A DNA stretch of 55,690 nucleotides from Chlamydiia bacterium (GTDB taxonomy: Bacteria > Chlamydiota > Chlamydiia > Chlamydiales > Rhabdochlamydiaceae). Both the position numbers and the translations under genes were made by a program. The notes below the pieces were generated by a model that saw only the letters and a program-made list of their open reading frames with translations, ran no database searches and was not told the origin of the DNA. Numbering within the stretch: position 1 is the first letter of the stretch; every line of letters starts with the position of its first letter. The DNA is taken from NCBI GenBank assembly GCA_021324995.1, contig JAJPIB010000016.1:1-55690 (forward strand). The letters run 5' to 3'. Shown in pieces: positions 382-51,251 of this stretch.

Positions 382-551
382 TTTATACCCAAATGCATTC
401 AAGAGTTGGTTTTTGGCTGCGTCGGCTTCGCGGTAAATTTTTGGTCTTCATTCGTGCCTTGCCTCCTCGGCAATGGTCACTCACTCCAGATACAAAAATT
501 TGCGCGGCCTTCTTGCCAAATTCCCAACTTTTGAATGCATTTGGGTATAAA
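382..551. repeat. Palindromic element 1 (type C arms)
   Basis: A 170-bp element with terminal inverted arms of 28 bp (382-409 and 524-551, one mismatch). Both ends read TTTATACCC outward to inward. The interior is itself partly self-complementary (GCGTCGGCTTCGCGG on the left against GCGCGGCCTTCTTGC on the right), so the single strand could form a long hairpin. It shares the TATACCC terminus with elements 3 and 4, but the rest of the arm is different. The 61-codon frame inside it looks like a by-product. Best read as a non-autonomous palindromic repeat, lying end to end with element 2. Confidence 0.8.
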
Positions 552-573
552 GAAGGACTAATTTTTTTATATG

Positions 574-711
574 CCTGAATCGACCATAGACTTGGATTTT
601 ATGCCACGCATTTTTTCGTATAACGAAGCGCGGAGCTCAGACCGCCATCTTCCTGCCAGCTGGAGAGCGAATAATGCATGACATAAAATCCAAGTCTATG
701 GTCGATTCAGG
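574..711. repeat. Palindromic element 2 (type B arms)
   Basis: A 138-bp element with 30-bp arms (574-603 and 682-711) that are perfectly complementary. TATA lies just outside both ends. The interior holds a block around GCCAGCTGG and GAGCTC that recurs in elements 5 and 6. A short frame at 601-681 (+) encodes 26 residues beginning MPRIFSYNEARSS; the same first residues are encoded by elements 5 and 6. The right arm begins two bases after the stop codon of the leftward gene 713-2137, so on the minus strand it could act as a 3' transcript hairpin. Confidence 0.85.
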
Positions 712-712
712 T

Positions 713-2137
713 CTATAAAATAGAGGCGATGGAAAGAGACTCGGCTTTAAGAAAATAGCGCCATTCCTCTTCAAAAAAGGGAGCTATAGTGGAACAGCGA
801 ATCAGTAAAGCATCCATTCTTTCGTGGCCAAAATGCTGAATAAATTCTGCAAGTACACCTGCTTTTTGAAGCTTCAGTAAGCATTCAGCGAGTTCCGAGT
901 CCTCGCGTAAAAATTTTTTTTCGAATGACTGTTTCCAGTCTTCCATTTTGCTGAACCCAATGTAGGCAGAGGGAAGCAAGATTCTCCAAGAATTTACCAA
1001 GTCATCGAGAAAGCGTTTTGTGTTTGGATGTTCGCACATTTTTTCAATGTGAAGAGCAGTACATGTGTTGAGTTTTTTCAGATCGCCTTTCATGTCCACG
1101 GGCTCAAAGCCAGGAATTGTAATCACATTTTTTGCGAGATAATCGCGCAACAAAGGGATTGTTTTGCGGGAATAGATCGACCCACTGCTGATATTAAATG
1201 GATCAGCTACATTACATTCTGCGCACCTGAGCGCTCGACTCGCAGCCTTTTGATTCCCATAGCATGAAACTAAAGTGTCAAAGAGCTGATTAAATTCGAT
1301 CGTTTCCCCTTCAGAAAAGGGAACGTGAATACAGGAATAGAACTCCGTCGGATGGCCCATTTCTGTTACGATGAGGCGCGTGGGGGAACTTAGTCCTTGA
1401 ATGTTTAGGGGAATGTAATTCCAGATATTGGAAGTGTCTACAGCGGAGACTTTGAATTTCTTTAAAAAAAACAAATCATTAATAGATCCAATTGTAGAAA
1501 TCATACTTCCCGATTTAGCGTATTCCTGTAGTTTTAAAAACTGAGACTCGTTTTCATGAAAATGCAATGCTTTGAAAGCTGAGTTATTGCGCCATGCGTG
1601 CTTTTGTGACAAATAGATAGAAGCAAAGTGGTGAAGGTACTTTTTGTAATATTGATATTGTCTGGTGTTGTCTTTTATACTGCTGTTTTTAAGCTTCTTC
1701 GAAAGGATTTCTATTCTTTTAGGGAAAAGATGAGTGTGAGCGATTGCAGCCACTCTTTCCAATAAGGGCATCTCGTAGCAGCAAGGGATAGGGGCGGATA
1801 ATTCTTGATATTCCTTTAGGCCTTCAGAAAGCTTAAGTAGCAGAATGTCAAAGTCGTTGTAAGCCTTTGTTCGATGATTGATATCTCTCATTACCACAGC
1901 CTCAAATCTTCCTAAAAGCGGGCCAGTCTTACATCTCTGCGTTCCTGTGGAGACGATGATCCCCCCTTCTTCAGCTAAGTCGAGATGCTCTTTAATCCCT
2001 TCGGGCTTCTCTTCATTGGGTTCTAAGTAATCCTCGAAACCACAGTCATAATGAATGTCGACATTGACCATCCACTCATCTGCAAGCACGTCCTCTAAAT
2101 TTATAAAAGGGGTTAAAGCTGTATTAATAGGGTTCAT
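713..2137 (-). CDS. Hypothetical accessory protein, 474 aa
   Basis: I do not recognise this protein. It is a soluble, mixed-charge 474-residue sequence with no signal peptide or membrane segment. It has scattered cysteines (a pair in IPCCYEM near residue 118, and CAEC in the middle). The start is well supported: AAGGTG lies about 6 nt upstream of the ATG. The 80 bases before that are extremely AT-rich (runs of TTAATAAT and AATTATAATT), as they are upstream of the PARG-like gene and the 1044-residue gene. The stop abuts palindromic element 2. It lies outside the conserved rho-polA block, which suggests a lineage-specific, possibly secreted, protein, but that is inference. Confidence 0.75.
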   Translation of the reverse strand: MNPINTALTPFINLEDVLADEWMVNVDIHYDCGFEDYLEPNEEKPEGIKEHLDLAEEGGIIVSTGTQRCKTGPLLGRFEAVVMRDINHRTKAYNDFDILLLKLSEGLKEYQELSAPIPCCYEMPLLERVAAIAHTHLFPKRIEILSKKLKNSSIKDNTRQYQYYKKYLHHFASIYLSQKHAWRNNSAFKALHFHENESQFLKLQEYAKSGSMISTIGSINDLFFLKKFKVSAVDTSNIWNYIPLNIQGLSSPTRLIVTEMGHPTEFYSCIHVPFSEGETIEFNQLFDTLVSCYGNQKAASRALRCAECNVADPFNISSGSIYSRKTIPLLRDYLAKNVITIPGFEPVDMKGDLKKLNTCTALHIEKMCEHPNTKRFLDDLVNSWRILLPSAYIGFSKMEDWKQSFEKKFLREDSELAECLLKLQKAGVLAEFIQHFGHERMDALLIRCSTIAPFFEEEWRYFLKAESLSIASIL

Positions 2138-2272
2138 TTATTTCACCTTAATTATAATTATTATTAATATGTTAAACAAAAATATAATTAATTTCAATTG
2201 TTATTAAATTAAATATTAATAACTAATTAAGGCATTGATAATAAGGGAAATAGATTGAAAACTGCGGGCCTC
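2138..2272. promoter_or_regulatory. AT-rich leader of the 474-aa gene
   Basis: About 130 bases of almost pure A+T separate palindromic element 3 from the leftward gene starting at 2137. On the minus strand this stretch offers many TAATAT/TATAAT-like hexamers, so no single promoter can be assigned. The ribosome-binding site AAGGTG just before the ATG is clear. Confidence 0.4.
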
Positions 2273-2436
2273 TATACCCAACGTGACTGAAAATTTGGTT
2301 TAGGACCGAAGCGAAAGCTTCCGCGATTGGTGCGATTGAATCGTCGTCCCTATTAGAAATAGGGGCTAGATTCGATCGTCCAATCCCGGGGCTTTGGCTC
2401 GGTCTTAAATCCAAATTTTCAATCACGTTGGGTATA
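2273..2436. repeat. Palindromic element 3 (type A arms, long form)
   Basis: A 164-bp near-complete palindrome. The outer arms of 26 bp (2273-2298 and 2411-2436) have one mismatch. Complementarity continues inward through GACCGA, ATTGG, GAATC and CCCTATT to a small loop near 2350, so the whole element could fold into one hairpin. Both ends are TATACCC. It sits 25 bases beyond the rho stop codon on the side where rho transcription ends, so it may terminate the rho operon. Element 4 is a shortened relative lacking about 66 internal bases. Confidence 0.85.
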
Positions 2437-2461
2437 TAGAAACCCGCGGTAAAAGGAGGGA

Positions 2462-3790
2462 CTAATCTTTCATCGTGAGGAGGAACTCGACGTTGCTGTT
2501 CGTCTTTTTCAGACGGCCCAGCAGCAAGTTCATGGCATCGAGAGGGGCGAGATCCGCAAGTGCCTGGCGCATGATGTAGATCTTATCGAGCTCATCCGGA
2601 TGGTAAAGGAGCTCTTCTTTGCGCGTTCCGCTCTTGACGATATCGATGGCAGGATAGACTCTGCGATCGGCGAGCCTGCGATCGAGGACAAGCTCCATGT
2701 TGCCGGTACCTTTAAACTCCTCAAAAATCACTTCGTCCATACGCGAGCCGGTGTCGATCAGCGCGGTAGCGATGATCGTGAGCGAGCCGCCCTCTTCAAC
2801 ATTGCGTGCGGCGCCGAAAAAGCGTTTTGGCTTGTGCAGGGCATTAGCGTCGATACCGCCTGTAAGGATTTTTCCTGAATGCGGCTGAACCGTATTATAA
2901 GCTCTAGCCAAACGTGTGAGCGAGTCGAGCAAGATGACGACATCGTGGCCGTATTCAACCAGACGGCGCGCTTTTTCGATTGCCATTTCTGCGACTTGGA
3001 CGTGTCTCTCTGGAGGTTCGTCGAAAGTTGAAGATACTACTTCGCCCTTGACGCTGCGGATCATATCCGTGACTTCTTCAGGGCGCTCATCGATCAAAAG
3101 AACGATTAGCACCACTTCGGGGTGATTTGCAGCGATAGAGTTAGCAATATTTTGAAGAATGATCGTTTTACCTGTACGGGGAGGTGCAACGATGAGAGAG
3201 CGTTGTCCCTTACCGATCGGAGAGGTTAAATCGATCACGCGCGATGTCATTTTCTCTTTGGTCGTTTCCATGACAAGGCGGGAATTCGGATAGAGCGGTG
3301 TGAGGTTTTCAAAAAGGACGCGGTCTCTCGCTTTTTCTGGGGGCTTGTTATTTATTTTTTCAACTTTGAGGAGAGCAAAATATTTTTCTTTTTCTTTTGG
3401 GGAACGGATAGTTCCATAAACGGTGTCCCCCTTTTTAAGATCAAATCTGCGGATCTGTGCGGGAGAAACATAGATGTCTTCTGCAGAAGGAAGATAGTTG
3501 TAGTTGGGGGAACGTAAAAAACCAAACCCATCGGGTAAGACTTCCAAAACGCCTTCGCCGACGAGAATTTCACCGGGTTTTTCAGAAATATATTTTACGA
3601 TTTCAAAGACGATTTGTGACTTCGCCAAGGCGCCAAGGCCTTTTAGGCCGATGGCTCTTGCGAAATGATTGAGTTGTTCGACGTTCATCCGCTGCAAGTC
3701 AGCGATCTTTGTGACAGATTCCGTGTATTCCTTTTGAGATTTATCGTTTTCTGGTTCCTGAATGTCTTGAACAGTATCTTCTGGGTTCAT
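2462..3790 (-). CDS. rho: Transcription termination factor Rho
   Basis: Rho is the hexameric RNA-dependent ATPase that ends transcription at factor-dependent sites. The 442-residue protein has the expected layout. An N-terminal helical segment (about 30-75) is followed by the cold-shock-type RNA-binding domain ([17 protein letters not shown] and following). The ATPase core has Walker A APPRTGKT near residue 200, Walker [17 protein letters not shown] near 285 and the C-terminal [24 protein letters not shown] lies about 11 nt before the ATG. It is last in the leftward run sppA-polA-coaE-rho, an order I recall from Chlamydia. Palindromic element 3 follows its stop. Confidence 0.97.
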
Positions 3791-3863
3791 TGAAAATCAG
3801 ACTCCTCAATTTGAAAATCCGATTCATCGCAGGGGCTCTTTTGCGCCGGGATGGGATGAAAGG

Positions 3864-4469
3864 CTAATCTTGGGTTAATTGTAAATAGATGGTTTTGACT
3901 TCTTTTTTGAGTTCGTTGAAAGACCCATTGTTTGGGATGACGTAATGAGCCTTTTTAGCTTTGTGCTCCGGAGAAATTTGCCTCAACATGCGTTTGTCGA
4001 ATTCCTCATCCGTAGAGTGCGTTTTTTCGACATAGCGCTTGCGACAAGTGTCTTGGGAAGCGTTAACGGTAATAATAACATCAAAAGCCTGCTCTTCTTC
4101 GGCTTCGTAGAGTAATGGGATTTCAGCGACGAAGAGAGAGTGCTTTTTTTCTCGGGATATCTTTTTATACTTTCGTTCAATTTCATTAAATACTGCTGGG
4201 TGTATAATCTTTTCCAACGCATCTAGAAGGTTCGGTTGAGAGAACACTTGTGCAGCAATTTTTTTTCGATCGAGTTCATTTCCATGGATGACATCAGAAC
4301 CGAGCAAGTTGACGATCTTCTGGGCAGTAGGTGTTCCTGGAGATAATAACTGGTGAGTGATTTTGTCAGCACTTACGACGTAGGCACCGAGCTCTTTAAA
4401 GATTTCGCAGACAGTCGATTTACCTGCTGACAGCCCACCTGTTACAGCAATTTTCTTTAATTTTAACAT
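3864..4469 (-). CDS. coaE: Dephospho-CoA kinase
   Basis: CoaE phosphorylates the 3'-hydroxyl of dephospho-CoA with ATP, the last step of coenzyme A synthesis, in the cytoplasm. The 201-residue length is typical. The P-loop is GGLSAGKST near residues 11-19. It is followed by the family's VSADKITHQLLSPGT substrate region, the HPAVFNEIE segment and the LLYEAEEEQAFDVIITV lid region. The ATG overlaps the polA stop by 7 nt, so translation is probably coupled to polA. Confidence 0.95.
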   Translation of the reverse strand: MLKLKKIAVTGGLSAGKSTVCEIFKELGAYVVSADKITHQLLSPGTPTAQKIVNLLGSDVIHGNELDRKKIAAQVFSQPNLLDALEKIIHPAVFNEIERKYKKISREKKHSLFVAEIPLLYEAEEEQAFDVIITVNASQDTCRKRYVEKTHSTDEEFDKRMLRQISPEHKAKKAHYVIPNNGSFNELKKEVKTIYLQLTQD

Positions 4470-7138
4470 TCAGCCCAATTTTCTCCAATGGAATTATCAA
4501 CAACGAGCGGGACGCTTAATTCAAATATTTTTTCCATAATATCTTTTACTTTAGCCGCAAGAAAAGGAGCTTCCTCCTCGGGTGTCTCGAACACAAGTTC
4601 ATCATGAATCTGAAGGATCATCATCCCCTTTTCAGGAGTTTGCTTTAAAAAGGCATCGACTTGGATCATCGCCATCTTAATGAGATCTGCGGCCGTGCCT
4701 TGCAAGGGGGTATTGATCGCCAGCCGCTCCGCTGCTGCGCGGATACTGGGATTTTTGTTGTGGATTTCTGGAATGGGCCGCTGCCTTCCGGTTAATGTGA
4801 CTGCCCTTCCGGTATTTCTCACACTTTCTTTGCAGAAGTGCAGAAAATCTTTCACGCGGTCGTAGCGCTCAAAGTAGGCTTGAATAAAAGACTCAGCTTC
4901 TTGGAAGCTGATGCCCAGCTGCTGGGAAAGACCGAAAGCTTGTTGGCCGTAGATGATTCCAAAATTCACCGATTTGGCCAAGTCGCGCATCTTGGGTGTC
5001 ACCTCATTTTGAGGAACTTGGAAAACAAGTGCCGCAGTGAATGTGTGGATATCTTGATTCTCGCGAAACGCCTTAACTAGGGTTGGATCTTCGGAGAGAT
5101 GGGCGAGGAGCCTGAGTTCGATCTGCGAATAGTCGGCGGCGACAAACTTCCATCCCGGTTTTTGGGGCCTAAAGGCTTCTCGGATTTTGTTTCCTTCTTC
5201 AGAGCGCACAGGGATGTTTTGCAAGTTGGGGTTTTGACAGGAAAGTCTGCCGGTTGCTGCGACAGATTGATTGAATGTGCAATGGATACGATGCGTATGT
5301 GGGTTGATTTGCTCCGGTAAAGAGTCAACATAAGTAGAACGCAATTTTTCAAGCGTTCTGTAAGCGAGAATTTCGCCAATAATGGGGGATTCCTCTTTTA
5401 AAGACTCAAGGACATCCGCTGCGGTGGAGTAGCCGGTTGCCGTTTTTTTAGGGGCAGGGATTTTCATCTTTTCGAAGAGGATAGTGCTGAGTTGTTTCGG
5501 AGAATTGAGATTAAATTTTTCTCCGGCGATTCGATAAATCGTATCTTCCAATGTCTCAAGCTTCATTTTAAGCATTTCCGACATAGTTCCGAGTTTTTTG
5601 ACATCTGCAAAGATTCCATTTCTCTCCATATGAGTAAGGATAGATATGAGAGGGATTTCGATGTGTTGGAAAAGCGGTTTAAGGTTGAGTTTATCAAGCT
5701 TGGATTCGAAAATTTCTTTCAGTCTGAGGGTACAATCGATATCTTCGCAGCAATAGGCCGTGATTTTATCCAAGGGCACTGCTTCCATGGAAATCTGTTT
5801 TTTCCCTTTGCCGATGAGGTCTTCGATCGGAATTTTTCTGTGGCTAAAATTTTCAAAAGAGAGATCGTCGAGGTTGTGCCGCTGTGTTTGGGGATTGACG
5901 AGGTAAGAGGCAAGAATTGTATCGAATGCGATGGTTTTTAGTGAGATTCCTTCATTGAGAAGAACGTGAAGGTCGTACTTGATGTTATGACCGACAAATC
6001 CAATGCGTGTATTTTCAAGAAGAGGTTTAAGGATAGAAAGGACTTTGGATTTTCCAACTTTTCCATTGCAAGGGATGTACCAGGCTTCGCCGGGCTGAAG
6101 GCCAAGGCCGATGCCGACTACGCGCGCAAGCATAGGCTGGATGTCTGTCGTTTCTGTATCGATACAAATTTCTTTTTCTATTTGGAGCCGTTTGACAAGC
6201 TCGCGAAGCATTTCTTCATCATCGATGAGGTGATAGTTTTGCGGAAGGACGATAGGGTGATGGATGATCTCAGGAGGAGCTTCTTCATCGATATCGAGCA
6301 ATTTTAAAAGAGAGAGAAAGTTCATCTCTTGATAGAACTCCTTTACCCGGCTCATTTCAGGAGTTTTGATATGAAAAAAAGCCTCTTCGCAAGGGAATTC
6401 GACGCCTGTGTGAATCGTTGCGAGTCTTTTGCTGATCAAGGCGATCTCTTTTCCGTTGATCACGGTCTCTTTTTTCTTGCCGCTCAGTTTATCGGGATTG
6501 GCAAGGATGTTTTCAAGGGTTCCGAATTCTTCTAGGAGTGCTGCAGCAGTTTTAGGACCAAACCCTTCAAGGCCGGGGATATTATCCGAGGCGTCACCCA
6601 TGATGGCCAAATAGTCGATCATTTGTTCAGGAAAAACATTAAAAAGTTCTTTGACTTTTGTTCTATCGATGAGCAGGTTGTCTTTTGCAGGATTGATGAC
6701 AAATACTTTGTCGGTGACGAGCTGGCAGAGGTCTTTGTCCCCTGAACAGACAAAAACGTCCACGCCTCTTTTTTCCATCCATTTGGCAATGCTTCCAATG
6801 GTGTCATCCGCTTCCACCCCTGGAATCGAGAGGTAGGGAATGCCTGCAATCTGACAGAATTCCAGAGCTCTCATGAGTTGAGGAACAAGGTCATCAGGCA
6901 TCCCTTCTCTATGGCTTTTATACTCGCTATAAATTTCAGTTCGCGACTTTTTGTTGTCGGGACCATCAAAAATGGCGATGAAGTAATCCGGAGAAAATTC
7001 ATTGATGAGCTTATAAATGGAACGGATGAAGCCGTATAATGCATTTGTCGATTCTCCTTTGGCGTTGGTCATTGGACCGATCGCATAGTAGGAGCGGAAC
7101 AGGAAATTCACGGCATCGACGATAAAGATTTTTTTCAT
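4463..7138 (-). CDS. polA: DNA polymerase I
   Basis: An 891-residue repair and Okazaki-fragment polymerase with all three classical domains. Residues about 1-290 form the 5'-3' exonuclease (VDAVNFLFRSYYA, GVEADDTIG, GDASDNIPG). Next is a 3'-5' exonuclease domain that keeps the metal-binding acidic residues (IDTETTD, GHNIKYD, CCEDIDCTL), so proofreading is probably active. The polymerase domain has motif A DYSQIELRLLAHLSED, motif B LAKSVNFGIIYG and motif C QIHDELVFE. The start ATG follows a short leader that can form two competing hairpins covering the only good Shine-Dalgarno sequence. It lies between sppA (upstream) and coaE (overlapping). Confidence 0.97.
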   Translation of the reverse strand: MKKIFIVDAVNFLFRSYYAIGPMTNAKGESTNALYGFIRSIYKLINEFSPDYFIAIFDGPDNKKSRTEIYSEYKSHREGMPDDLVPQLMRALEFCQIAGIPYLSIPGVEADDTIGSIAKWMEKRGVDVFVCSGDKDLCQLVTDKVFVINPAKDNLLIDRTKVKELFNVFPEQMIDYLAIMGDASDNIPGLEGFGPKTAAALLEEFGTLENILANPDKLSGKKKETVINGKEIALISKRLATIHTGVEFPCEEAFFHIKTPEMSRVKEFYQEMNFLSLLKLLDIDEEAPPEIIHHPIVLPQNYHLIDDEEMLRELVKRLQIEKEICIDTETTDIQPMLARVVGIGLGLQPGEAWYIPCNGKVGKSKVLSILKPLLENTRIGFVGHNIKYDLHVLLNEGISLKTIAFDTILASYLVNPQTQRHNLDDLSFENFSHRKIPIEDLIGKGKKQISMEAVPLDKITAYCCEDIDCTLRLKEIFESKLDKLNLKPLFQHIEIPLISILTHMERNGIFADVKKLGTMSEMLKMKLETLEDTIYRIAGEKFNLNSPKQLSTILFEKMKIPAPKKTATGYSTAADVLESLKEESPIIGEILAYRTLEKLRSTYVDSLPEQINPHTHRIHCTFNQSVAATGRLSCQNPNLQNIPVRSEEGNKIREAFRPQKPGWKFVAADYSQIELRLLAHLSEDPTLVKAFRENQDIHTFTAALVFQVPQNEVTPKMRDLAKSVNFGIIYGQQAFGLSQQLGISFQEAESFIQAYFERYDRVKDFLHFCKESVRNTGRAVTLTGRQRPIPEIHNKNPSIRAAAERLAINTPLQGTAADLIKMAMIQVDAFLKQTPEKGMMILQIHDELVFETPEEEAPFLAAKVKDIMEKIFELSVPLVVDNSIGENWAEC

Positions 7139-7185
7139 GAAGGAGGACCATTCCTCCCTCTGAGCGAGGGAGGCATTGTAGATGA
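7139..7185 (-). promoter_or_regulatory. sppA-polA spacer with competing hairpins over the polA ribosome site
   Basis: Read on the minus strand, the spacer contains CCTCCCTC, a 5-base loop and GAGGGAGG (7153-7173), a perfect 8-bp hairpin. The 3' arm GGAGGA can instead pair with TCCTCC just before the polA ATG through a 4-base loop. The only strong Shine-Dalgarno sequence (AGGGAGG) lies in both stems, so one fold or the other would occlude it. This could be an RNA switch or just a processing or termination hairpin. Confidence 0.4.
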
Positions 7186-8229: not shown

Positions 8230-8333
8230 ATATCTCCAAAAATAGTCTATAAATGAAATCCCCAATCTAAGATAATCCGAGGTTTCTAGGTGAATGTTAA
8301 AAGAGTGAAAGATTTTCAGCTACAGTCAATTCT

Positions 8334-10113: not shown

Positions 10114-10119
10114 AGAGGA

Positions 10120-11361: not shown

Positions 11362-11408
11362 ATAGCATCTTGTGTTATGAAGTACAAATATTATCAGAAA
11401 GGTGATTG

Positions 11409-25128: not shown

Positions 25129-25782
25129 TTAGCCAGAAGGAGTTTCTATGGGGGGAGTGTTTTCTGGGGCTGATGTCTGTGCAGATGGGGCCGCCTGTTT
25201 GCAGAGGAGGGTTTGATAGGTGTAGATCCGTGAGCTAACCGGATGTTTTTTGTTGCGGAAAAGTTTAAAGGTTTTATCCTTTGGAGTCACTTTGACGCGG
25301 TAAGTGGCTAATCGGTATTCATCCCCTTCTTTTGTCTTCTTGCCTACCGAGTAAAGAGTTTTTTCAAGCAAAAATTCCTTTTTCCCGATTGGGTGAAGAA
25401 AAACCTCAACGTTTTCATTGGGAAGGACTTTTTTTTCTGCTCGGGTTTTTAAAATCTCTTTCCAGGGAATTTCTTGCTTGTACAGGTTTTCCTTGAGTTC
25501 AGCAAAGCTTAGGTCAGCAATCCTCTGCGCCTGCAATCCATAGGCGCTATTGTACTCCTGCTTAACAGCCCTCATGGGAAATTGTGCGAGCGGTAGAGCA
25601 AATGTCCCAACGAGAAATAAGGCGATCAATAGCTCGAGCATCAGGAAGCTATACTGCGTCCGCTTAGATTGTGCGAATTTATGCAGCCCCCTTTTTCCGC
25701 CTGGCTTTGCGTTCGCTCTCGCAAGCTGGCAAGAAGATTGCTTCGAGCTCCACGCTTCGCCAGACAAAAAAATGCGGGGCAT
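25129..25782 (-). CDS. Pseudopilin-like protein whose leader is encoded by a palindromic element
   Basis: The body encodes a prepilin-like protein: SFLMLELLIALFLVGTFALP has the hydrophobic helix with glutamate at mature position 5, followed by a globular domain ending in a proline-rich tail. If cleavage is before FLML, the leader must lie upstream, and there the DNA is palindromic element 6. The in-frame ATG at 25782 lies inside the element and gives a leader ending SKRTQYS (217 residues in all). Starting at the ATG at 25641 would give 170 residues with no leader. Neither ATG has a clear ribosome site. The gene may therefore be a working fusion or damaged. The cluster continues with 22572-23162. 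Confidence 0.6.
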   Translation of the reverse strand: MPRIFLSGEAWSSKQSSCQLARANAKPGGKRGLHKFAQSKRTQYSFLMLELLIALFLVGTFALPLAQFPMRAVKQEYNSAYGLQAQRIADLSFAELKENLYKQEIPWKEILKTRAEKKVLPNENVEVFLHPIGKKEFLLEKTLYSVGKKTKEGDEYRLATYRVKVTPKDKTFKLFRNKKHPVSSRIYTYQTLLCKQAAPSAQTSAPENTPPIETPSG

Positions 25783-25812
25783 AAATTCACACAATCTAAG
25801 CGGGCGCGGTAT
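25650..25812. repeat. Palindromic element 6 (type D arms) at the pseudopilin 5' end
   Basis: A 163-bp element with arms of about 34 bp (25650-25684 and 25779-25812). The arms match at 31 of 34 positions and each mismatch is a C/T difference that could form a G-U pair in RNA. The left end reads TATAC. The interior shares the GAGCTC and CAGCTTGCGAGAGCG-like block with elements 2 and 5. On the minus strand it encodes an in-frame peptide beginning MPRIF that runs directly into the pseudopilin reading frame. Confidence 0.8.
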
Positions 25813-25882
25813 CTGTTGACGGCATATACTTTTCGAGCTAATCTCTTTATTAATTCGCGATAATTTTTTGTGTGATTTGGAT

Positions 25883-26872
25883 ATGGAAATCAAGGGAAAA
25901 GCACTTTTTAATCTTCTCAGGATGAACTGTCTGGAGGATCCCAATAGCGATGCGAAGGAATGGCAAGTTGAGGATTTGCGAGATCTAAGCATGGAAGAGT
26001 TATATTCCCGTTTAAAAGCGCTGGGCGTTATTTTAAACGACGAGAGTTTTTCTCTCTACGCCGAAAACTGTGAAAGCCCTGAAGACCTTGCCGATTGCGT
26101 ATGGTTTGAAGAGGAAGATCTTGAAGGACACGATAAAGCTTACCTTCTTCTTTTTGAACTGTGGAGACGCCTGCTTCCTGATAAACTTTCTCTTTCTGTT
26201 TTTTGTGATGAGCTCGATCAACTGATCAACCTTTACGATCAGGGGACTTTAGAAGATGAAGACCCTTTGCAAAGCGCGCTTTCTATTCTCGAAGACATTT
26301 TAGACGATGCCTATGATGAAAAAGGCTCTCCTCAAGGGGTCTTCAATGAGGTCGCCAATTACTGTGCCCACGATCTCGAGCATTTCATCATCGATTACAT
26401 CTCTGACCAAATCGCTGAAGGAAATGAGACTTACGCTTCCGAACTCATCGATGCCTTTTATGATTACTCCTCAGACCGCCGTCATTTTGATTTGCTCCGC
26501 GCCCGTCTTTTTTCTAGCGCCGATCTGGAAGAATCCAACATCTTGTATGGGCGTATCCTTGAAGATCTTACGGATCATCCCGACCTCGAATTGCTACTGC
26601 TTTTCGCAGAAAGCCTTATCCATCGCGGCGATGTGCGGTTATTCATGAAAGCGGTCAAACTCGCGCTTCCTCTGCTTAAAACAGAAGAAGAGTTCCAGGA
26701 TCTGTTGGGAATGGTGGCAGAATATTACCGCTGTCTCGATAGAGAGGCAGAAGAGCATACCGTGAAGGGACTCCTCGCCGAGCGTACGATGCATACTCGA
26801 CAGAAAAATCTAGATCCCTCGGACAAGGCCGTGGCGCATCTCTCCCAAATCATCTCTCTCCACACGGAGTAG
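25883..26872 (+). CDS. Conserved-type acidic hypothetical protein, 329 aa
   Basis: A strongly acidic, leucine-rich, soluble protein that looks all-helical and may form TPR-like helical pairs in its C-terminal half (SNILYGRILEDLTDHPDLE, then LLLLFAESLIHRGDVRLF). I do not recognise a named family. I use the ATG at 25883; the frame opens at a TTG 15 nt earlier. It is divergent from the pseudopilin gene, with palindromic element 6 between the two bodies, and convergent with the 1044-residue gene 11 nt away. Composition resembles housekeeping genes rather than the AT-rich accessory genes. Confidence 0.75.
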   Translation: MEIKGKALFNLLRMNCLEDPNSDAKEWQVEDLRDLSMEELYSRLKALGVILNDESFSLYAENCESPEDLADCVWFEEEDLEGHDKAYLLLFELWRRLLPDKLSLSVFCDELDQLINLYDQGTLEDEDPLQSALSILEDILDDAYDEKGSPQGVFNEVANYCAHDLEHFIIDYISDQIAEGNETYASELIDAFYDYSSDRRHFDLLRARLFSSADLEESNILYGRILEDLTDHPDLELLLLFAESLIHRGDVRLFMKAVKLALPLLKTEEEFQDLLGMVAEYYRCLDREAEEHTVKGLLAERTMHTRQKNLDPSDKAVAHLSQIISLHTE

Positions 26873-37309: not shown

Positions 37310-37408
37310 TTATACCCAATGCGACTGAAAATTTGGTTTAGGACCGAAGCGAAAGCTCCCGCGATTGGCTCGGTCTTAAATCCAAATTTTCAGTCGCATT
37401 GGGTATAA
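37310..37408. repeat. Palindromic element 4 (type A arms, short form)
   Basis: A 99-bp element with 27-bp arms that are perfectly complementary (37310-37336 and 37382-37408) and TTATACCC at both ends. It matches element 3 but lacks about 66 internal bases. Two arm positions differ from element 3 (AACGTGA there, AATGCGA here), and both arms carry the matching change, so each copy stays self-complementary. It truncates, or forms the 3' end of, a short gene remnant on the minus strand. Confidence 0.85.
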
Positions 37409-39088: not shown

Positions 39089-39166
39089 TGTCCTCAAAGT
39101 CAGAGTTAAAAACTTCCAATGAGAGAGGATTTATAGAAGAAGAGATTGTTTTCTTGCAAGTGGAAT

Positions 39167-39196
39167 GCCCAAACTTTTTTTGCAAAAAGTTTGGGC
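39167..39196 (-). terminator. Perfect hairpin downstream of secA
   Basis: GCCCAAACTTTTT and its exact complement form a 13-bp stem around TTGC, 6 nt after the secA stop. The stem carries A/T tracts next to its loop but no T-run follows, so it may stabilise or terminate the secA transcript. Confidence 0.55.
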
Positions 39197-39202
39197 GCTG
39201 AC

Positions 39203-43928: not shown

Positions 43929-44530
43929 AGAATTTTACAGATTGGACACTTTTGTGGATCATGGCCCTTGGCTGGGCAGTACTTTCTGGCGAAGTAGATG
44001 ATTTGCAGATGCAGTTTGTTCCAGGATTTCTTTGGGAAAAGACTCTTTAAATCTTTTTCCGTCTGTTCCACGCTTTTACCTGAGCTCAGTCCCCAACGCT
44101 TAGCGCAGCGATGGATGTGTGTGTCGACCGGGAATGCGGGTTGGTGAAAGGCTTGCGACATCACGACGGAAGCTGTTTTATGGCCAACGCCCGGAAGTTG
44201 TTCGAGATGGGAAAAGGATGCAGGAACTTTGCCATGATGTTTATCGATGAGGATTTTTGAGAGGTTCCAAATGGCTTTAGCTTTAGTATTGCTTAGGCCG
44301 CAGGTGCGGATGAGCGTAGTAATCTCTTCGACAGAAAGTTTGACCATTTCTTCAGGGGTGCAGGCCCTAGCAAATAATACGGGAGTCACCAGATTGACTC
44401 TAGCATCGGTACATTGCGCGGAGAGAAGGACGGCGATGAGTAAAGTGTAGGGATCGGTGTGCTCTAGGGGAATCGATGGATCGGGAAAAAGTTCATCGAG
44501 GATGTGCTGAATTTGTTTTGTCTTCGTCAT
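43925..44530 (-). CDS. nth: Endonuclease III
   Basis: A DNA glycosylase/AP lyase for oxidised pyrimidines. The 201-residue protein has the helix-hairpin-helix LEQLPGVGHKTASVVM with the catalytic lysine, and the catalytic aspartate in AFPVDTHIHRCAKRWGL. The C-terminal iron-sulfur loop reads YCPAKGHDPQKCPICKIL. The cysteine spacing is wider than in E. coli and the fourth C-terminal cysteine is absent, so the cluster may be bound differently. It overlaps mnmE by 4 nt on the same strand. Confidence 0.94.
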   Translation of the reverse strand: MTKTKQIQHILDELFPDPSIPLEHTDPYTLLIAVLLSAQCTDARVNLVTPVLFARACTPEEMVKLSVEEITTLIRTCGLSNTKAKAIWNLSKILIDKHHGKVPASFSHLEQLPGVGHKTASVVMSQAFHQPAFPVDTHIHRCAKRWGLSSGKSVEQTEKDLKSLFPKKSWNKLHLQIIYFARKYCPAKGHDPQKCPICKIL

Positions 44531-45903: not shown

Positions 45904-46026
45904 TGTGGGGATTGCTCTTTAAATTGTGGAATAATCATACCCAAAAACGAGGCCGATGACAACAATCAAACGTTGTAGTAAAAAAAAATTTAATTATATT
46001 TCAGGTAGGTATTAATACTCAAAGAA

Positions 46027-48675
46027 ATGGCTTCTTCTATGCAAACACAAGAGCACTTAAGACTTGCGGAAAAGGTCATTGATGAGGTCCCGCATTGGTT
46101 TAAATGGGGCCCTTATGTTTCAGAAAGGGCGTGGGGTACCGTGCGAGAAGATTATAGTGCTGATGGTGATGCTTGGGCTTATTTCCCTTTTGATAAAGCG
46201 AATATGAAGGTCTATCGTTGGGGTGAGGATGGAATTGCAGGTTGGTGCGACCGCTATCAGGTACTTGTTTTTGCCCCGGTATTTTGGAATGGCAAGGATC
46301 CTTTTCTAAAAGAGCGCCTTTTTGGGCTGGCATCCGTCGAAGGCAACCACGGCGAAGACGTTAAGGAATGTTACTATTATATTGATGGGACGCCCACGCA
46401 TTCCTACATGAAATTTCTTTATAAGTACCCCCATGAGGCATTTCCCTATGAACAACTCTTGGGTGAAAATCGCAAAAGGGGCACTCATGATTCTGAGTAT
46501 GAGTTGATCGATACGGGGATTTTCGATGACAGTCGCTACTTTGATATTTTTATTGAGTACGCGAAAGAAACTCCTGAAGATATTTGCATTCGTATCGAGG
46601 CGTTCAATCGCAGCGAGGAGCCGGCAGATTTACACCTCCTGCCACACCTTTGGTTTCGCAATCAATGGGGTTGGGAAGATAAGCGTCAACCTGAACCAGA
46701 GATCGTCAATTTTACACAGAATGGCTCACTTTGTTTGAGAGCGGATGATACGCGTATGAATTCGCTGTCCAACTTGCAATTCGATTATCATTTGGGCAAG
46801 CGTTATTTATACGGTTCCGAGGGAGCTAGACTTTTGTTTACGGACAATGAGGACAAACCGGGACATCCGTTCACTAAAGATGCCTTCCATCGCACCGTTG
46901 TCGACAATGAGAATTGCACAAACCCAAAGCAAACAGGGACTAAAGCCTGTTTTCATTACCAATACGAGAAAATTCCAGGAAAGGGTTCCATCGTCATTTA
47001 TTTGCGGCTTTCCAACCAAGCGCTCGAGTGTCCCTTAGATGATATTAAAGATATTTTTGACAAGAGAAAGAAAGAAGCGGATGAGTTTTACTCAACGATC
47101 CATCCCAAAAATGCAAGTGAGGATGAACGTTTGATCCAAAGGCAGGCGCTTGCTGGAATGCTATGGAGTAAGCAGATTTACCTTTTCGATGTCGATTTGT
47201 GGCTAACGGGAGATCATTCTGAGCTAAAGCCTCCGCAGACACGCTACCAAATTCGAAATATCCATTGGCGTCATCTCAACTCAATGCGGATTTTATCGAT
47301 GCCGGACAAATGGGAATATCCTTGGTTTGCGGCGTGGGACCTCGCTTTTCATTGCATCACTTTAGCGCTTGTCGATATCGAGTTTGCCAAGGAACAGCTG
47401 TGGTTGCTTCTCTTCGATCAGTTCCAACACCCTAATGGAGCGATCCCTGCCTATGAATGGGAATTTTCCGATTTGAATCCTCCGGTGCAAGCGTGGGCTG
47501 CTTATCGCATTTATGAGATGGAGCGCAAGCAAGGCGAAAAAGGAGATATCGAATTTCTGAGAAAATGTTTTTTAAAACTTCTCATGAACTTTGCTTGGTG
47601 GGTCAACAAGGTCGATAGCTCGGGAAATAACGTCTTTGAAGGGGGATTCCTGGGACTGGATAACATCACCTTAATCGACCGTTCACAAACGTATTTTGCC
47701 GGAGCTACGCTGCGTCAATCAGATGGTACGGGATGGATGGCGATGTTTTGTCTCAATCTCATGCGGATTTCCCTTGAGCTCTCGACAGCGATGCCCGGTT
47801 ATGAAGCCATGGCAACAAAATTTTTCCAGCACTTTGTCTACATCGCAGATGCGATGAAGAAAATGGGAAACAAAAATTATGGCCTCTGGAGCGAAAAAGA
47901 CCATTTCTTTTACGATGTGCTCTCTTATCCCAATGGGCAATTTTCTGAATTCCGAGTCCGCTCTCTCGTCGGTTTAATCCCTCTGTTCGCGGTAGAGATT
48001 CTTGATGAAGATGAGCTATCGCTTTTCCCGGAATTTAAGAAGAATTTCGAATGGTTTGTCATCCATAGAAAAATTCTATCTGAGGACTGTGTCATTCCTC
48101 TTAAAGACCAAGATAAAAAAGGATATATCCTGACGCTTGTTAGCGAAGACCATCTCAGAGGAATTTTGCAATATGTATGGAGTCCTGAGGAATTTCGCTC
48201 CGATTATGGATTGCGCAGCTTGTCCAAGTTTCATAAGGAACATCCCTTTTTCTATCAGGATAGAAAGGTAGGATATGAGCCGGGCGAATCCCTAGAGCGC
48301 GTCAAAGGAGGGAACTCTAATTGGCGGGGTCCCATTTGGACCGTTCCTACGTTCATGCTGACACAATCGCTAGAGAAGTTTGCAAGCGCATTTGGAGAGG
48401 GGGTTAAGGTCTCCTATAGAGATGAGCCTCCTGCAAACCTTCATGAGATGGCACAATCTTTTGCCAATGGAATCATCCGCATTTTTGCATTGGATACCTC
48501 GGGCAATCGGCCTGTTTTTGGAGAGCATTTTCCCTACGCCAAAGACCCTTACTGGAATTGTTACCCTTTATTTCACGAATACTATCACGGCGAAACGGGA
48601 AAAGGCTTAGGCGCTTCCCACCAAACCGGATGGAGTGGTCTTGTCGCTAACTTTATTGATTTATACCGCTGCTAA
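46027..48675 (+). CDS. GH63/MGH-type glucosidase-like glycoside hydrolase
   Basis: An 882-residue (alpha/alpha)6-barrel protein resembling family 63 processing alpha-glucosidases and bacterial MGH1-like relatives. The N-terminal sandwich (about 1-370) has many aromatic residues. The barrel has PWFAAWDLAFHCITLALVD, HPNGAIPAYEWEFSDLNPP, DGTGWMAMFCLNL and the C-terminal GGNSNWRGPIWTVPTFM. No signal peptide, so it probably acts on cytoplasmic glucose-containing sugars, perhaps linked to glycogen or trehalose. The substrate is unknown. No strong ribosome site. The stop overlaps that of ruvA on the other strand. Confidence 0.85.
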   Translation: MASSMQTQEHLRLAEKVIDEVPHWFKWGPYVSERAWGTVREDYSADGDAWAYFPFDKANMKVYRWGEDGIAGWCDRYQVLVFAPVFWNGKDPFLKERLFGLASVEGNHGEDVKECYYYIDGTPTHSYMKFLYKYPHEAFPYEQLLGENRKRGTHDSEYELIDTGIFDDSRYFDIFIEYAKETPEDICIRIEAFNRSEEPADLHLLPHLWFRNQWGWEDKRQPEPEIVNFTQNGSLCLRADDTRMNSLSNLQFDYHLGKRYLYGSEGARLLFTDNEDKPGHPFTKDAFHRTVVDNENCTNPKQTGTKACFHYQYEKIPGKGSIVIYLRLSNQALECPLDDIKDIFDKRKKEADEFYSTIHPKNASEDERLIQRQALAGMLWSKQIYLFDVDLWLTGDHSELKPPQTRYQIRNIHWRHLNSMRILSMPDKWEYPWFAAWDLAFHCITLALVDIEFAKEQLWLLLFDQFQHPNGAIPAYEWEFSDLNPPVQAWAAYRIYEMERKQGEKGDIEFLRKCFLKLLMNFAWWVNKVDSSGNNVFEGGFLGLDNITLIDRSQTYFAGATLRQSDGTGWMAMFCLNLMRISLELSTAMPGYEAMATKFFQHFVYIADAMKKMGNKNYGLWSEKDHFFYDVLSYPNGQFSEFRVRSLVGLIPLFAVEILDEDELSLFPEFKKNFEWFVIHRKILSEDCVIPLKDQDKKGYILTLVSEDHLRGILQYVWSPEEFRSDYGLRSLSKFHKEHPFFYQDRKVGYEPGESLERVKGGNSNWRGPIWTVPTFMLTQSLEKFASAFGEGVKVSYRDEPPANLHEMAQSFANGIIRIFALDTSGNRPVFGEHFPYAKDPYWNCYPLFHEYYHGETGKGLGASHQTGWSGLVANFIDLYRC

Positions 48676-49274
48676 ATACTCCGTAGCGCTGATGTAATGA
48701 GCCGGGCCAACTCGGGCTCACCTTCTGTTTTTGAAAGAGCGACCTTGATCGCCTTTTGAGATTGGGCGTTATTGTAGCCCAGATGCATTAAAGCAGAGAT
48801 TGCATCGGAGACAACACCTTGCTCTTGATTCTGTCCTTGAAAAGATTGCAGCTCGCCGCTGCTGTTCATTCCTTTCTTCACTTTATCCCGCATATCGACG
48901 ACAAGCCTTTCCGCTGTCTTCTTGCCAATGCCCGGAATTTTGCAAATGACTGAAATGTTTCCCTGACTAAGCGCTGCCTGTAGATCATTCACTTCCATAT
49001 GTCCTACTAAAGACAGTCCTGTTTTTGGGCCTACTCCGGAAACTTCAATCAAGCTTTCAAAAAGATCTCTCTCGTGTCGCGTCAGAAAGCCAAATAACTT
49101 TTGAGAATCCTCTCGTACGATGAAAGAGGTAAAAAGTGTGACCGATGTCCCTATAGCAGGGAGTTTCGAAAAGTTGTTAAAGGGGATCTGGAGGCAAAAT
49201 CCAATCCCTTGCGTCTCAACGATCGCTTTACAAGGGGTCGCTTCGACTAATATGCCTTTGATGAACTCGTACAT
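48672..49274 (-). CDS. ruvA: Holliday junction DNA helicase subunit RuvA
   Basis: RuvA binds four-way DNA junctions and loads the RuvB motor. The 200-residue protein has the N-terminal OB fold starting MYEFIKGILVEATP, two helix-hairpin-helix motifs (LIEVSGVGPKTGLSLVG and ICKIPGIGKKTAERLVV) and a C-terminal domain that would regulate RuvB (AISALMHLGYNNAQSQKAI). Start at 49274 with AAAGGT 7 nt upstream, inside the 3' end of ruvC (28-nt overlap). The frame's longer opening at 49316 is not needed. ruvB is not in the window. Confidence 0.96.
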   Translation of the reverse strand: MYEFIKGILVEATPCKAIVETQGIGFCLQIPFNNFSKLPAIGTSVTLFTSFIVREDSQKLFGFLTRHERDLFESLIEVSGVGPKTGLSLVGHMEVNDLQAALSQGNISVICKIPGIGKKTAERLVVDMRDKVKKGMNSSGELQSFQGQNQEQGVVSDAISALMHLGYNNAQSQKAIKVALSKTEGEPELARLITSALRSI

Positions 49275-49825
49275 TTTTGTAACCTTTCCAAATAGTTTAC
49301 GGAATGCGCATGACAAATGGCAAGAGCAAGCGCATCGGCGGCGTCTTCAGGTTCGGGAAGCACAGGCAGTTCCAAAAGAAGTTGGATCATCTTCTGTACT
49401 TGCTCTTTACTCGCCGAGCCGTTGCCCACGACGGCGAGCTTCGCTTTTTTAGGGGCATATTCAAAAATCGGTATACCTCTTCTTGCTGCCGCAATCATCA
49501 CGACGCCGCGAGCCATCCCCAGTTTGAGAGCGCTTTGCACATTTTTATAAACGAATTGCGTTTCAACGGCCACAGCATCGGGAGAGTACTCATTGAGAAG
49601 TTTTTCCAAACTGTTGAAAAGAGCGAGATAACGCGCAGGAAGATCCTGATTTGTTGGCGGGCGAATGCATCCAAAATCGACAGGTTCGATGCGGGGATGG
49701 CGAACTTTGATCACCCCATACCCTGTGACGCGCGTTCCCGGATCAATCCCTAAAATGATTTGCTGTCGCTGCTGCCCCTTCAACGCAAAAATCCCCGCTT
49801 TTTGCTTTTTGCCCAATATACTCAT
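49247..49825 (-). CDS. ruvC: Holliday junction resolvase RuvC
   Basis: RuvC cuts Holliday junctions. The 192-residue protein has all four catalytic acids: ILGIDPGTRVTGYGV, VAVETQFVYKN and the pair in PEPEDAADALALAI. The SASKEQVQKMI loop is also typical. I use the ATG at 49825; the frame extends further through the intergenic palindrome, which is not credible. The first 20 residues are a basic extension before the fold, and a TTG closer to the fold is possible. It is upstream of, and overlaps, ruvA. Confidence 0.94.
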   Translation of the reverse strand: MSILGKKQKAGIFALKGQQRQQIILGIDPGTRVTGYGVIKVRHPRIEPVDFGCIRPPTNQDLPARYLALFNSLEKLLNEYSPDAVAVETQFVYKNVQSALKLGMARGVVMIAAARRGIPIFEYAPKKAKLAVVGNGSASKEQVQKMIQLLLELPVLPEPEDAADALALAICHAHSVNYLERLQKCTSSSKAY

Positions 49826-49899
49826 GCCTAAAGTTTTTCCCCATTGAGAAAAGATCCATTTACAACCTTTTGATTTTAAATATTTTACGAAACAAATAA

Positions 49900-49940
49900 A
49901 ATAATATGTCGAAAAAAAACTGTTTTTTCGACATATTATT
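49900..49940. promoter_or_regulatory. Perfect 18-bp inverted repeat between ruvC and fic
   Basis: AATAATATGTCGAAAAAA and its exact complement flank a 5-base spacer (AACTG). It lies in the 139-nt divergent region between the ruvC and fic starts, 24 nt before the fic ATG. It could be an operator for a dimeric regulator or a bidirectional hairpin. Unlike the six palindromic elements, it has no TATACC ends. Confidence 0.55.
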
Positions 49941-49964
49941 CGTATCTGTCGATTCCGTAAACAT

Positions 49965-51062
49965 ATGAGGCTTATCGCTATGTCCTTTGATCGAAACACC
50001 CCTTATAACCATTTACCAGAGTTGCCTCCAAGAATGGATTTGGAAACTGTCCCTATTCTAAAAATGACTGTTCGAGCAAATAAAGCGATTGCCGAGCTTA
50101 AAATTTCAGGTCACCTAATTCCGAACCAAGCTGTTCTGATCCAGGCCTTGGGGCTCTCTGAAGCTAAACTTTCTTCAGAAATTGAAAACATTGTTACAAC
50201 AAATGACGAATTATATAAAGCTTTTGTTAATGCTAACTTATTGATTGAGCCTGAGACAAAAGAGGTTCTTTATTACAAAGATGCGCTTTGGCATGGATTT
50301 CGTTCCTTAACTCAAAAGAAAAGGCTATTGACGACTCCTCTTTTCATAGAGTTAGTTCAAATATTAAAGAACTCAACACAGGGAATTCGAAATCTGCGAG
50401 GCACAAAGTTAATCAACCCTGCAGGAGAAGTAAAGTATACTCCTCCTGAAGGGGAGGACGTTATTCGAAATAAATTATCGAATTTAGAAACTTTTATGCA
50501 CTCTGAAACTTCTTTGGATCCTCTCATTAAAATGGCGGTGATGCATTATCAGTTCGAGGCTATTCATCCTTTTTCAGATGGAAATGGTAGGGCAGGAAGG
50601 ATTTTAAACATTTTATATTTGGTTGATAAGGGATTACTAGATCTTCCCGTCCTCTATTTATCCCGATATATCATTGAGAATAAAGCTGCATATTATAATG
50701 GATTACAAAACGTGACTGAATCAGGCGCGTGGGAATGTTGGATTCTTTACATGTTACAAGGACTTGAGGAGACTGCTATTGCTACAAGAAAACGGATTTT
50801 AAATATCTATCACTTAATTCAAGAAACAGCAGAAAAAGTCCGTACTAAATTGCCAAGAATTTATTCGAAAGATTTAATTGAAGTGTTATTTAGATCTCCT
50901 TATTGTAAAATTAAATTTCTCGAAGAAAGCGGTATAGCAAAAAGGCAGACCGCTTCTGTTTATCTTAAAGAGCTTGAGCGGATTGACGTGCTTCGAAGCT
51001 TTAAAATGGGCCGCGATGTTTACTATCTGAACGACCTTTTTCTAAAGACACTCACAATGTAG
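49965..51062 (+). CDS. Fic-domain (AMPylase-type) protein with N-terminal inhibitory motif and C-terminal winged helix
   Basis: A 365-residue Fic protein, which typically transfers AMP from ATP to a target hydroxyl. The catalytic motif HPFSDGNGRAGR starts at H201 and is complete. Upstream, S70-SEI-E74-N75 matches the class II inhibitory motif (S/T)xxxE(G/N), so the enzyme is probably held off by its own glutamate. The C-terminal SGIAKRQTASVYLKELERI region looks like a winged-helix domain, common in stand-alone bacterial Fic proteins that control themselves. No separate antitoxin gene is present. A second ATG lies 15 nt in. Divergent from ruvC; palindromic element 5 follows its stop. Confidence 0.92.
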   Translation: MRLIAMSFDRNTPYNHLPELPPRMDLETVPILKMTVRANKAIAELKISGHLIPNQAVLIQALGLSEAKLSSEIENIVTTNDELYKAFVNANLLIEPETKEVLYYKDALWHGFRSLTQKKRLLTTPLFIELVQILKNSTQGIRNLRGTKLINPAGEVKYTPPEGEDVIRNKLSNLETFMHSETSLDPLIKMAVMHYQFEAIHPFSDGNGRAGRILNILYLVDKGLLDLPVLYLSRYIIENKAAYYNGLQNVTESGAWECWILYMLQGLEETAIATRKRILNIYHLIQETAEKVRTKLPRIYSKDLIEVLFRSPYCKIKFLEESGIAKRQTASVYLKELERIDVLRSFKMGRDVYYLNDLFLKTLTM

Positions 51063-51067
51063 GATTT

Positions 51068-51251
51068 TATACCTGAATCGGCCATATACTCAACGTGATT
51101 GAAAATTTGGATTTTCTGGCCTTGCCTTTTTCCGTCTAATTTCGCGCTCGCTCTCGCCAGCTGGCAGGGAGATAGCTTCCCGCGAGCTCCGGACTTTGTT
51201 ATACGAAAAAATGCGTGGCATAAATCCAAGTCTATGGCCGATTCGCGTATA
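51068..51251. repeat. Palindromic element 5 (chimeric type B/type A)
   Basis: A 184-bp element with 19-bp outer arms of type B (51068-51086 and 51233-51251, two mismatches) and TATAC at both ends. Inside the left arm, 51085-51110 is instead a type A arm (25 of 26 bases match one arm of element 3), starting at a TATA. The rest is type B and shares the GCCAGCTGGCAG and GAGCTCC block with elements 2 and 6. It encodes a minus-strand peptide beginning MPRIFSYNKVRSS (ATG at 51221). It begins 6 nt after the fic stop and could act as a transcript hairpin. Confidence 0.85.

Follow-up and report, generated by a model that had tools for sequence, protein, structure and literature searches.

Six palindromes of a chlamydial contig are MITEs bounded by TA, with IS630/Tc1-like ends and interiors of three families

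Rickettsia palindromic elements, in the part of the published account available to us, are repeats of about 150 bp that fall into several families and lie in frame within unrelated genes of an obligate intracellular bacterium; the same text presents such in-frame elements as unusually frequent in Rickettsia and their effects on proteins as unexplored (PMC10969869). QMITE1 and QMITE2 of Coxiella are MITEs of another intracellular bacterium that overlap ORFs; they have direct repeats of 2-3 or 7-11 nt, as against the TA found here, and the accessible portion of their description speaks of no exchange of ends (PMC5896051). GTAG repeats have been reported from the PVC superphylum in the section available of a further source (PMC3733652), and REPs are characterized as sequences of 20-40 bp that carry GTAG or CGTC as a tag.

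We analyzed a window of 55,690 nt and found that its six long palindromes are TA-bounded MITEs of three interior families (F1, F2, and F3), with ends like those of IS630/Tc1 transposons. As far as the partial description of the Rickettsia elements goes, F1 is like them in palindromic form, size, and insertion into genes, and their characteristic trait, a palindromic repeat in frame in protein genes, was found here too. The elements studied here differ in belonging to another phylum and in having their ends, their TA site, and a candidate transposase class identified, and F1 differs further in that one core, with its mismatches conserved, carries dozens of end types. To our knowledge, the mover of the Rickettsia elements has not been identified. 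Behavior like that of the Rickettsia elements appears here in a second intracellular phylum, with recognizable ends and a candidate transposase class. With the IS630/Tc1-mariner MITEs, such as RUP of pneumococcus, which is linked to IS630, and the Correia element of Neisseria, which is compared by its ends, the elements share the TA target, the TIRs, the lack of a gene of their own, and a size of 100-200 bp, whereas F1 is frequently inserted in frame within genes of some lineages. Ordinary MITEs are conserved at their ends; F1 instead has a conserved interior and variable ends, so that an exchange of ends around a conserved core would be the reverse of the usual pattern. REPs and REPINs are also repeated palindromes, but the present elements are about 164 bp long with TA-bounded terminal repeats, and those of the window measured 97-184 bp with TATA ends, unlike the 20-40 bp and the GTAG or CGTC tag of REPs. 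A search of titles and abstract openings in the open-access literature found no paper describing chlamydial palindromic or MITE elements.

The six elements were the top six (I1-I6) of 13 inverted repeats with spans below 400 bp listed for the window, which confirmed that the palindromes of a preliminary description are real. Its boundaries were right to within two bases for five of them; the element it placed at 574-711 was off by six bases at each end and actually spans 568-717. All six are given on the + strand, with limits running from TATA to TATA. The F2 element (384-549, 166 bp) has the arms TATACCCAAATGCATTCAAGAGTTGG, and its interior recurred with other arms in about 30 further places. 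Next to it lies the F3 element (568-717, 150 bp; arms TATAxxCCTGAATCGACCATAGACTTGGATTTTATG), to which 14 places of the genome, itself included, were related. A full-length F1 element of 164 bp (2273-2436) is separated by 26 bp from the 3' end of a gene that Pfam assigns as rho. The left half of its core (2313-2324) holds the G of a G.G mismatch at 2313, AAAGC at 2314-2318, a bulged T at 2319, and the C of a C.C mismatch at 2324, and the right half (2386-2396) holds the C of the C.C mismatch at 2386, CGGGGCTTT, and the G of the G.G mismatch at 2396. The element at 25650-25813 has an F3 interior, the arms TATACTGCGTCCGCTTAGATTGTGCG, and a right TATA decayed to TATC; it is enclosed by an ORF on the minus strand (25129-25992), whose prepilin-like hydrophobic start, as read by eye, comes directly after the element. 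The F1 element at 37311-37407 (97 bp) has lost its apical hairpin. The last element (51068-51251, 184 bp), with an F3 interior, begins 5 bases after a Fic-domain ORF (Pfam), and by eye its left arm contains an F1-arm-like stretch, TATACTCAACGTGATTGAAAATTTGG. The four arm types reported earlier (TATACCCAAATGCATTC, TATAxxCCTGAATCGACC, TATACCCAACGTGACTG, and TATACTGCGTCCGC) were all present, as was the interior common to three elements (568-717, 25650-25813, and 51068-51251).

This genome held at least 41 near-full-length copies of the F1 element at 2273-2436, a lower bound in that 40 of 244 candidates were scored. A de novo palindrome census covered 456 kb, about 23% of the genome, in contigs chosen for their length. 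It yielded 47 palindromes, and a count by eye gave TATAC or GTATA at an arm end in 29 of them; the palindromes of the window are therefore not due to chance. Relatives were found to carry the family as well. A model of the F1 interior matched 101 of 232 genomes of the phylum and 76 of 145 genera, with 81, 99, and 120 matches (both strands counted) in the genomes G228, G193, and G124, and the mismatched core was kept across 16 family labels of one order. A scan of viral contigs with one host protein found no relative.

Insertion at TA was supported by two kinds of evidence. The joined flanks of one element (L116:13905-14068) matched an element-free paralogous site (L116:16136-16087) at 94% over 50 bp and a second element-free site (L116:15959-16010) at 85% over 55 bp, the one clear paralogous case in an empty-site test of 115 elements; the other six queries with hits were set aside as self or repeat-edge matches. 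A nested copy in L007 showed the host sequence GGGGC-TA-GATT around TATACC...GGTATA. The TA duplication and empty site that had been looked for were thus found, and the TA boundaries were shared among the 91 extracted F1 copies (best-scoring matches, not a random draw), two of which (L213 and L283) had no TA pair and two (L224 and L271) aligned poorly unless shifted. Five copies (L208, L221, L224, L252, and L271) had ends other than the TATAC kind. F1 therefore shows the features of a MITE: many dispersed copies, a short length (164 bp) with no gene of its own, terminal inverted repeats (at least 20 of 24 arm positions matched in 87 of the 91 copies), and a TA target-site duplication with an empty-site counterpart.

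We further compared arms within and between copies. Among 55 non-redundant F1 arm types, ten variable positions agreed in 91% of cases within copies and in 28% between copies, and the observed sum of 502 stood against a largest value of 201 in 1000 permutations; element boundaries were set to maximize arm matching, by which within-copy agreement was somewhat favored. The proposal that arms are replaced as pairs was upheld by this difference. The claim that the two arms match almost perfectly in each copy held for F1 but failed for many F2 copies. F2 occupied 30 loci in this genome, of which 18 could be scored over 24 positions: five TATACCC-ended copies scored 21-23, three of eleven TATACTG-ended copies scored 21-24 and the other eight 16-19, and two copies that adjoin a contig end or another element scored 10 and 12. 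By eye, L037 and L049 were recognized as hybrids that combine arms of two kinds.

In sequence comparison, the arms look like TIRs of different IS630/Tc1-type transposons. A locus of the same genus (L135, genome G003) has a DDE_3 transposase within perfect 27-bp TIRs, TATACTGCCGTCGGCCTGAAACTTTGA, with which the F1 arms of L204, from another genus, agreed at 24/27 and 25/27. Full-length transposase frames of 353 and 351 codons (L346 and L329) lay between MITE-arm-like ends, one end of each matching an F1 arm of another genome at 23/24 and 21/24, respectively. The best matches (25/27, 23/24, and 21/24) thus lay between genomes; the best within one genome was 19/24, from L334, whose ends matched arms of its own genome at 19/24 and 18/24, and poor TIR candidates in the same scan mostly reached 12-16 of 24. 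MITE-arm-like TIRs were present in only about 5 of the 29 IS630 loci scanned, and most arm types had no transposon counterpart with such ends among these loci. No intact IS630 transposase was found in the draft of this genome, which held one fragment, nor was a DDE_3 match found in the F1-carrying drafts G012, G016, and G005. One end shared at 24/24 (G077) was discarded, as it sits in a left-truncated F1 copy fused to a transposase gene and is not the transposon's own end. An autonomous copy was sought here by TATAC-type arms 250-4500 bp apart, which gave 12 pairs; the two long-frame pairs inspected (L023 and L016) turned out to be neighboring MITEs around host genes. Because a transposase needs two like ends, the resemblance of the arms to IS630/Tc1 TIRs offers one plain reason for the match within copies.

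We consider it highly probable that the palindromes are miniature TA-bounded mobile elements with paired IS630/Tc1-mariner-like ends, likely moved by the enzymes of those transposons. A transposase supplied in trans would bind two like arms and paste the element at a TA. The core might move between end kinds via recombination between copies or, alternatively, change its ends when one arm is copied onto the other at a replication fork; by passing from one end kind to another, it would keep finding a working transposase. The mismatches of the core probably mark a feature that spread requires, for recognition or for folding. Copies with a stop-free net insert of 162 bp would survive inside genes because only a 54-residue loop is added, and the remaining copies would settle between genes. 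A bolder version, which we put forward tentatively and on balance doubt, makes the conserved hairpin core itself the selfish element: a hyperparasite found throughout the phylum that takes over the end of any active IS630-type transposon, copies it to its other side so that the two ends match, and by its stop-free 54-codon length can hide as a translated loop in essential enzymes.

The palindromes might instead act mainly as RNA, that is, as terminators, stabilizers, or RNase III sites at gene ends, with the fold under transcript selection. The copies examined were predicted to form very stable RNA hairpins of about -77 to -135 kcal/mol, double changes occurred in 27 of 49 pairs among 20 F1 sequences, with unpaired positions conserved, and 65 of 81 facing 3' ends lay within 50 bp of a locus. 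However, the nearness to gene 3' ends reported earlier, while true in the window, was unspecific over the 141 loci examined: 38 of 71 facing 5' ends also lay within 50 bases, 29 of the 141 loci were inside ORFs, and in G029, stop-free frames of at least 238 codons contained 12 of the 16 places that matched over at least 55 residues. The suggested role in ending transcripts was therefore not supported. Moreover, mispairs in the non-redundant arms were G.U in 27 cases and A.C in 22, so that there was no sign of selection on an RNA strand of the arms, which the preliminary description had entertained, and over all 148 copies A.C was even commoner than G.U (80 versus 51). Rfam gave no match in the window at the gathering score, and in positions 300-2500 only plant miRNA and one K10_TLS hit below the cut-off. 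We regard a mainly RNA role as unlikely.

A match of arms within copies, whatever their sequence, is also what neutral concerted evolution would give if arms corrected each other by template switching and drifted freely, without exchange or selection, and the match extends to apical stems that transposon ends leave unexplained (L174 and L176). Such correction would, however, erase the unpaired positions of the core, which were kept between covarying stems on both sides: G.G in 115, the bulged T in 108, and C.C in 102 of the 125 copies having both motifs (23 of 148 dropped; AAAGC and GCTTT are at 100% by selection, as reading was confined to copies with both, 51 of 55). The closeness of some arms to IS630 ends, the existence of hybrids, and the uncorrected state of F2 copies with unlike arms also speak against it, and we take neutral correction as the sole process to be quite improbable. 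A conserved extrahelical base and mismatches within a variable stem might also point to a substrate of folded single-stranded DNA, comparable to an integron attC site or an IS200/IS605 end, in which the bulged T and the mismatches mark the strand cut by a HUH or tyrosine enzyme; the core hairpin presumably resembles the attC and IS200/IS605 hairpins. We give this little credence, since a cut-and-paste DDE enzyme would account for the full-length TIRs, the TA duplication, and the resemblance of the ends to those of DDE_3 transposons.

Under the preferred reading of transposase-moved MITEs, copies inside genes are of particular interest. F1 copies were in frame in conserved genes: those of glycyl-tRNA synthetase, UppP, NagZ, and an MbnB-like enzyme, in each of which the insert split the Pfam domain (GlyRS beta in the synthetase) into two stretches, and that of a glycosyltransferase of this genome. 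The insert was absent in 4 of 4 GlyRS relatives having both halves, in 9 of 9 UppP homologues with a match, and in 6 of 6 aligned homologues of the glycosyltransferase. Translation of these copies is predicted to add about 54 amino acids to the protein, in one case to the product of an essential gene; such natural 54-residue insertions in conserved enzymes, given their predicted translation, offer material for studying the tolerance of proteins to added sequence. Pantothenate kinase, MutL, RecC, and phosphofructokinase had looked interrupted to the eye but were not counted as proven, because the insert falls next to a Pfam domain or between two, or Pfam finds none. The 29 loci inside ORFs correspond to 26 distinct places, since L140/L203, L149/L199, and L160/L198 are duplicate pairs (the 141 loci also contain duplicates), with 21 opposite and 5 same in orientation; several are at gene ends and may owe their ORF to an artefact of calling, and those at gene starts (L008, L016, L163, and L166) were left aside because they may be 5' extensions. 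Open frames per copy averaged 0.93, compared with 0.44 in shuffles and 0.48 in shuffled palindromes. Outside G000, G016, and G029, the net length was divisible by 3 in 31 of 84 copies, no more often than by chance, and these counts are not independent because copies within one genome are close relatives. The strand bearing the bulged T leaned against the neighboring genes, with 97 opposite and 55 same, perhaps in part because ORF calls extend into the open frame of the element.

The six palindromes singled out in the preliminary description were the six top-listed short-range inverted repeats in the window, and the TATA-type ends ascribed to them were seen in the sequence. Grouped by interior, they fell into three families: F1, with a full-length 164-bp member at 2273-2436 and a copy at 37311-37407 whose apex is deleted; F2, at 384-549; and F3, at 568-717, 25650-25813, and 51068-51251. 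The genome from which the window comes, 1.94 Mb in 86 contigs, contains 41 or more F1 copies close to full length, a lower bound with 40 of 244 candidates scored, together with F2 interiors at more than 30 places and F3-related sequence at 14, to which another search added the window's element at 25650. The host was accepted as an environmental chlamydia; PolA was 49% identical to two records titled Chlamydia trachomatis MAG, and one host protein had homologues in records labelled Chlamydiae, Chlamydiia, and Parachlamydiaceae as well as in Verrucomicrobia and other groups. A de novo census of 456 kb gave 47 palindromes, of which 29, as counted by eye, had an arm terminus with TATAC or GTATA. 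Since several elements lay at or near contig ends (C20, C34, C53, and C75 of this genome), counts from the draft assembly are probably too low.

A covariance model of the F1 interior alone, from which the outermost 16 bases of either arm were excluded, matched 101 of 232 genomes; these represented 76 of 145 genera and, within one order, 16 family labels. When 91 F1 copies were taken from among its better-scoring matches, 89 of them had TA at both ends, which bears out the common boundaries expected for these elements. TA on both sides together with an empty site is the signature of Tc1/mariner-IS630 insertion. The flanks of 115 elements were joined at one TA and compared with all sequence collected; seven of the joined flanks gave matches, and the search for empty sites that had been proposed yielded one clear paralogous case among the 115 elements, present twice in the same contig. 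Moreover, one F1 copy (L007) was nested within another element, with host sequence GGGGC-TA-GATT around it and TA on both sides.

The preliminary description had also held that the arms differ among copies but match almost perfectly within each. For F1 this was correct, as the arms agreed at 20 or more of 24 positions in 87 of 91 copies, whereas it failed for TATACTG-ended F2 copies, 8 of 11 of which had unlike arms when scored. At arm positions 7-16 of 55 non-redundant arm types, agreement was 91% within versus 28% between copies, and the observed pairing sum (502) exceeded the largest of 1000 permutations (201), so that F1 arms do behave as pairs. Several arm types were found on one core within single genomes (G012 and G114), and F2 interiors were approximately 80-89% alike among copies with differing arms, the match ending at the arms. 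In genome G016 an F2 arm was found as short separate matches, which we read as the arm sitting on other interiors, and two loci (L037 and L049) were by eye hybrids that carried a different kind of arm on each side.

Mid-stem, F1 carried a mismatched core (G.G, AAAGC/GCTTT, a bulged T, CCCG/CGGG, and C.C) that recurred in seven genomes. After 23 of 148 copies were dropped, the 125 having both motifs retained G.G in 115, the bulged T in 108, and C.C in 102. With the letters used for finding it set aside, core positions were mostly 80-98% identical, a few lower, in contrast to 29-47% at arm positions 7-16. The persistence of these mismatches between covarying stems speaks against simple arm-to-arm correction; in an interior alignment of 20 sequences, 27 of 49 pairs had double changes. 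G.U and A.C mispairs numbered 27 and 22 in non-redundant arms and 51 and 80 in all copies, so these counts give no sign of selection on this RNA strand. In L174 (G005) and L176 (G030), the apical stem was an unrelated, nearly perfectly paired hairpin of another length on an unchanged core. F2, matched in 13 of 31 near genomes including the window's, had its own conserved apex, CACTCGCGCCTTGCC-TCTC-GGCAATGGTCGCTCGCTCC, with middle stems changing yet paired (L180-L197).

IS630-type transposases (DDE_3) were matched in 8 of the 31 near genomes, the window's included, and in 77 of the 232 genomes of the phylum. A same-genus IS630 has perfect 27-bp ends, TATACTGCCGTCGGCCTGAAACTTTGA, which the two arms of an F1 copy from another genus (L204) matched at 24/27 and 25/27. 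At three further loci (L329, L334, and L346), ends of this design enclosed a transposase frame of full length (351-353 codons), and these ends matched MITE arms from other genomes at 21/24, 20/24, and 23/24 respectively; the best arms in its own genome matched the L334 ends at 19/24 and 18/24. The window's genome retains a transposase fragment roughly 50 bases away from an F2-type end, but the fragment has decayed too far to prove that it and the end are parts of one unit. Most arm types had no partner among the IS630 loci examined, and a perfect end match in G077 was rejected as a truncated F1 copy joined to a transposase gene. The transposon link, drawn from sequence comparison, is therefore likely but not proven. 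At that G077 locus (L330:32-833), the transposase frame runs directly into the right half of the F1 element, as though this element had either been truncated at that point or come to serve as the transposon's end. F1 cores also occurred with non-TATAC ends in L208, L221, L224, L252, and L271 (TAGTACTCTG, TAGTGCTCTG, TAGGGTGTGTGCAAC, TACGCTATC, and TAATGGTCC), and the TAGTGCTCTG end resembles the inverted repeat flanking an IS630 gene in L130. We conclude that the palindromes are best read as IS630/Tc1-like MITEs with a conserved core, which may have a role of its own, and exchangeable ends; a transposase probably moves them in trans.

By mechanical ORF calling (minimum 360 bases), 29 of 141 F1 loci, representing 26 distinct places, lay inside ORFs, where the element gives a stretch of about 54 codons free of stops. 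In GlyRS beta, NagZ, an MbnB-like enzyme, and UppP, Pfam recognized a single domain in two separate segments. The GlyRS of G029 had matches in 5 of 10 other genomes searched; four contained both parts and placed residues 1-487/493 and 549/552 onward side by side with no insert, and the fifth match was cut short. For UppP of G193, matched in 9 of 13 other genomes, the insert was absent in all nine. An F1 copy in the window's genome (G000:C26:10457-10620) interrupts a glycosyltransferase, and was absent in 6/6 aligned homologues chosen from 219 matches. In G029, 16 places matched the element's peptide over at least 55 residues, 12 of them within frames that run 238 to 1044 codons without a stop, some at gene ends. 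Stop-free frames averaged 0.93 per copy, versus 0.44 in shuffles and 0.48 in shuffled palindromes. The net length was divisible by three in 41 of the 48 copies from G000, G016, and G029, versus 31/84 in a wider set, 3/10 in G012, 1/3 in G005, 0/2 in G030, and 1/1 in G009, and the coding-compatible form is therefore a property of some lineages. These lineages, we conclude, are adapted to, or filtered for, residence in reading frames, where the insert would be translated within the host protein.

Two points are new here: throughout a phylum, ends are swapped while the core stays conserved, and copies sit in frame within conserved genes in bacteria other than Rickettsia. Searches of the open-access literature listed no earlier description of either. 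F1 works like the Rickettsia palindromic element (PMC10969869), but the likeness is one of function, and it was not filed as one.

Within the window, the element at 25650-25813 leads directly into a prepilin-like hydrophobic start in the ORF at 25129-25992 on the reverse strand, as if supplying a leader; Pfam gave no domain for this ORF. The stretch at 61-120, at the contig start, is very G+C-rich. Elsewhere, L108:2954-3431 is a 478-bp palindrome with 164-bp arms, composed of two F1 copies face to face.
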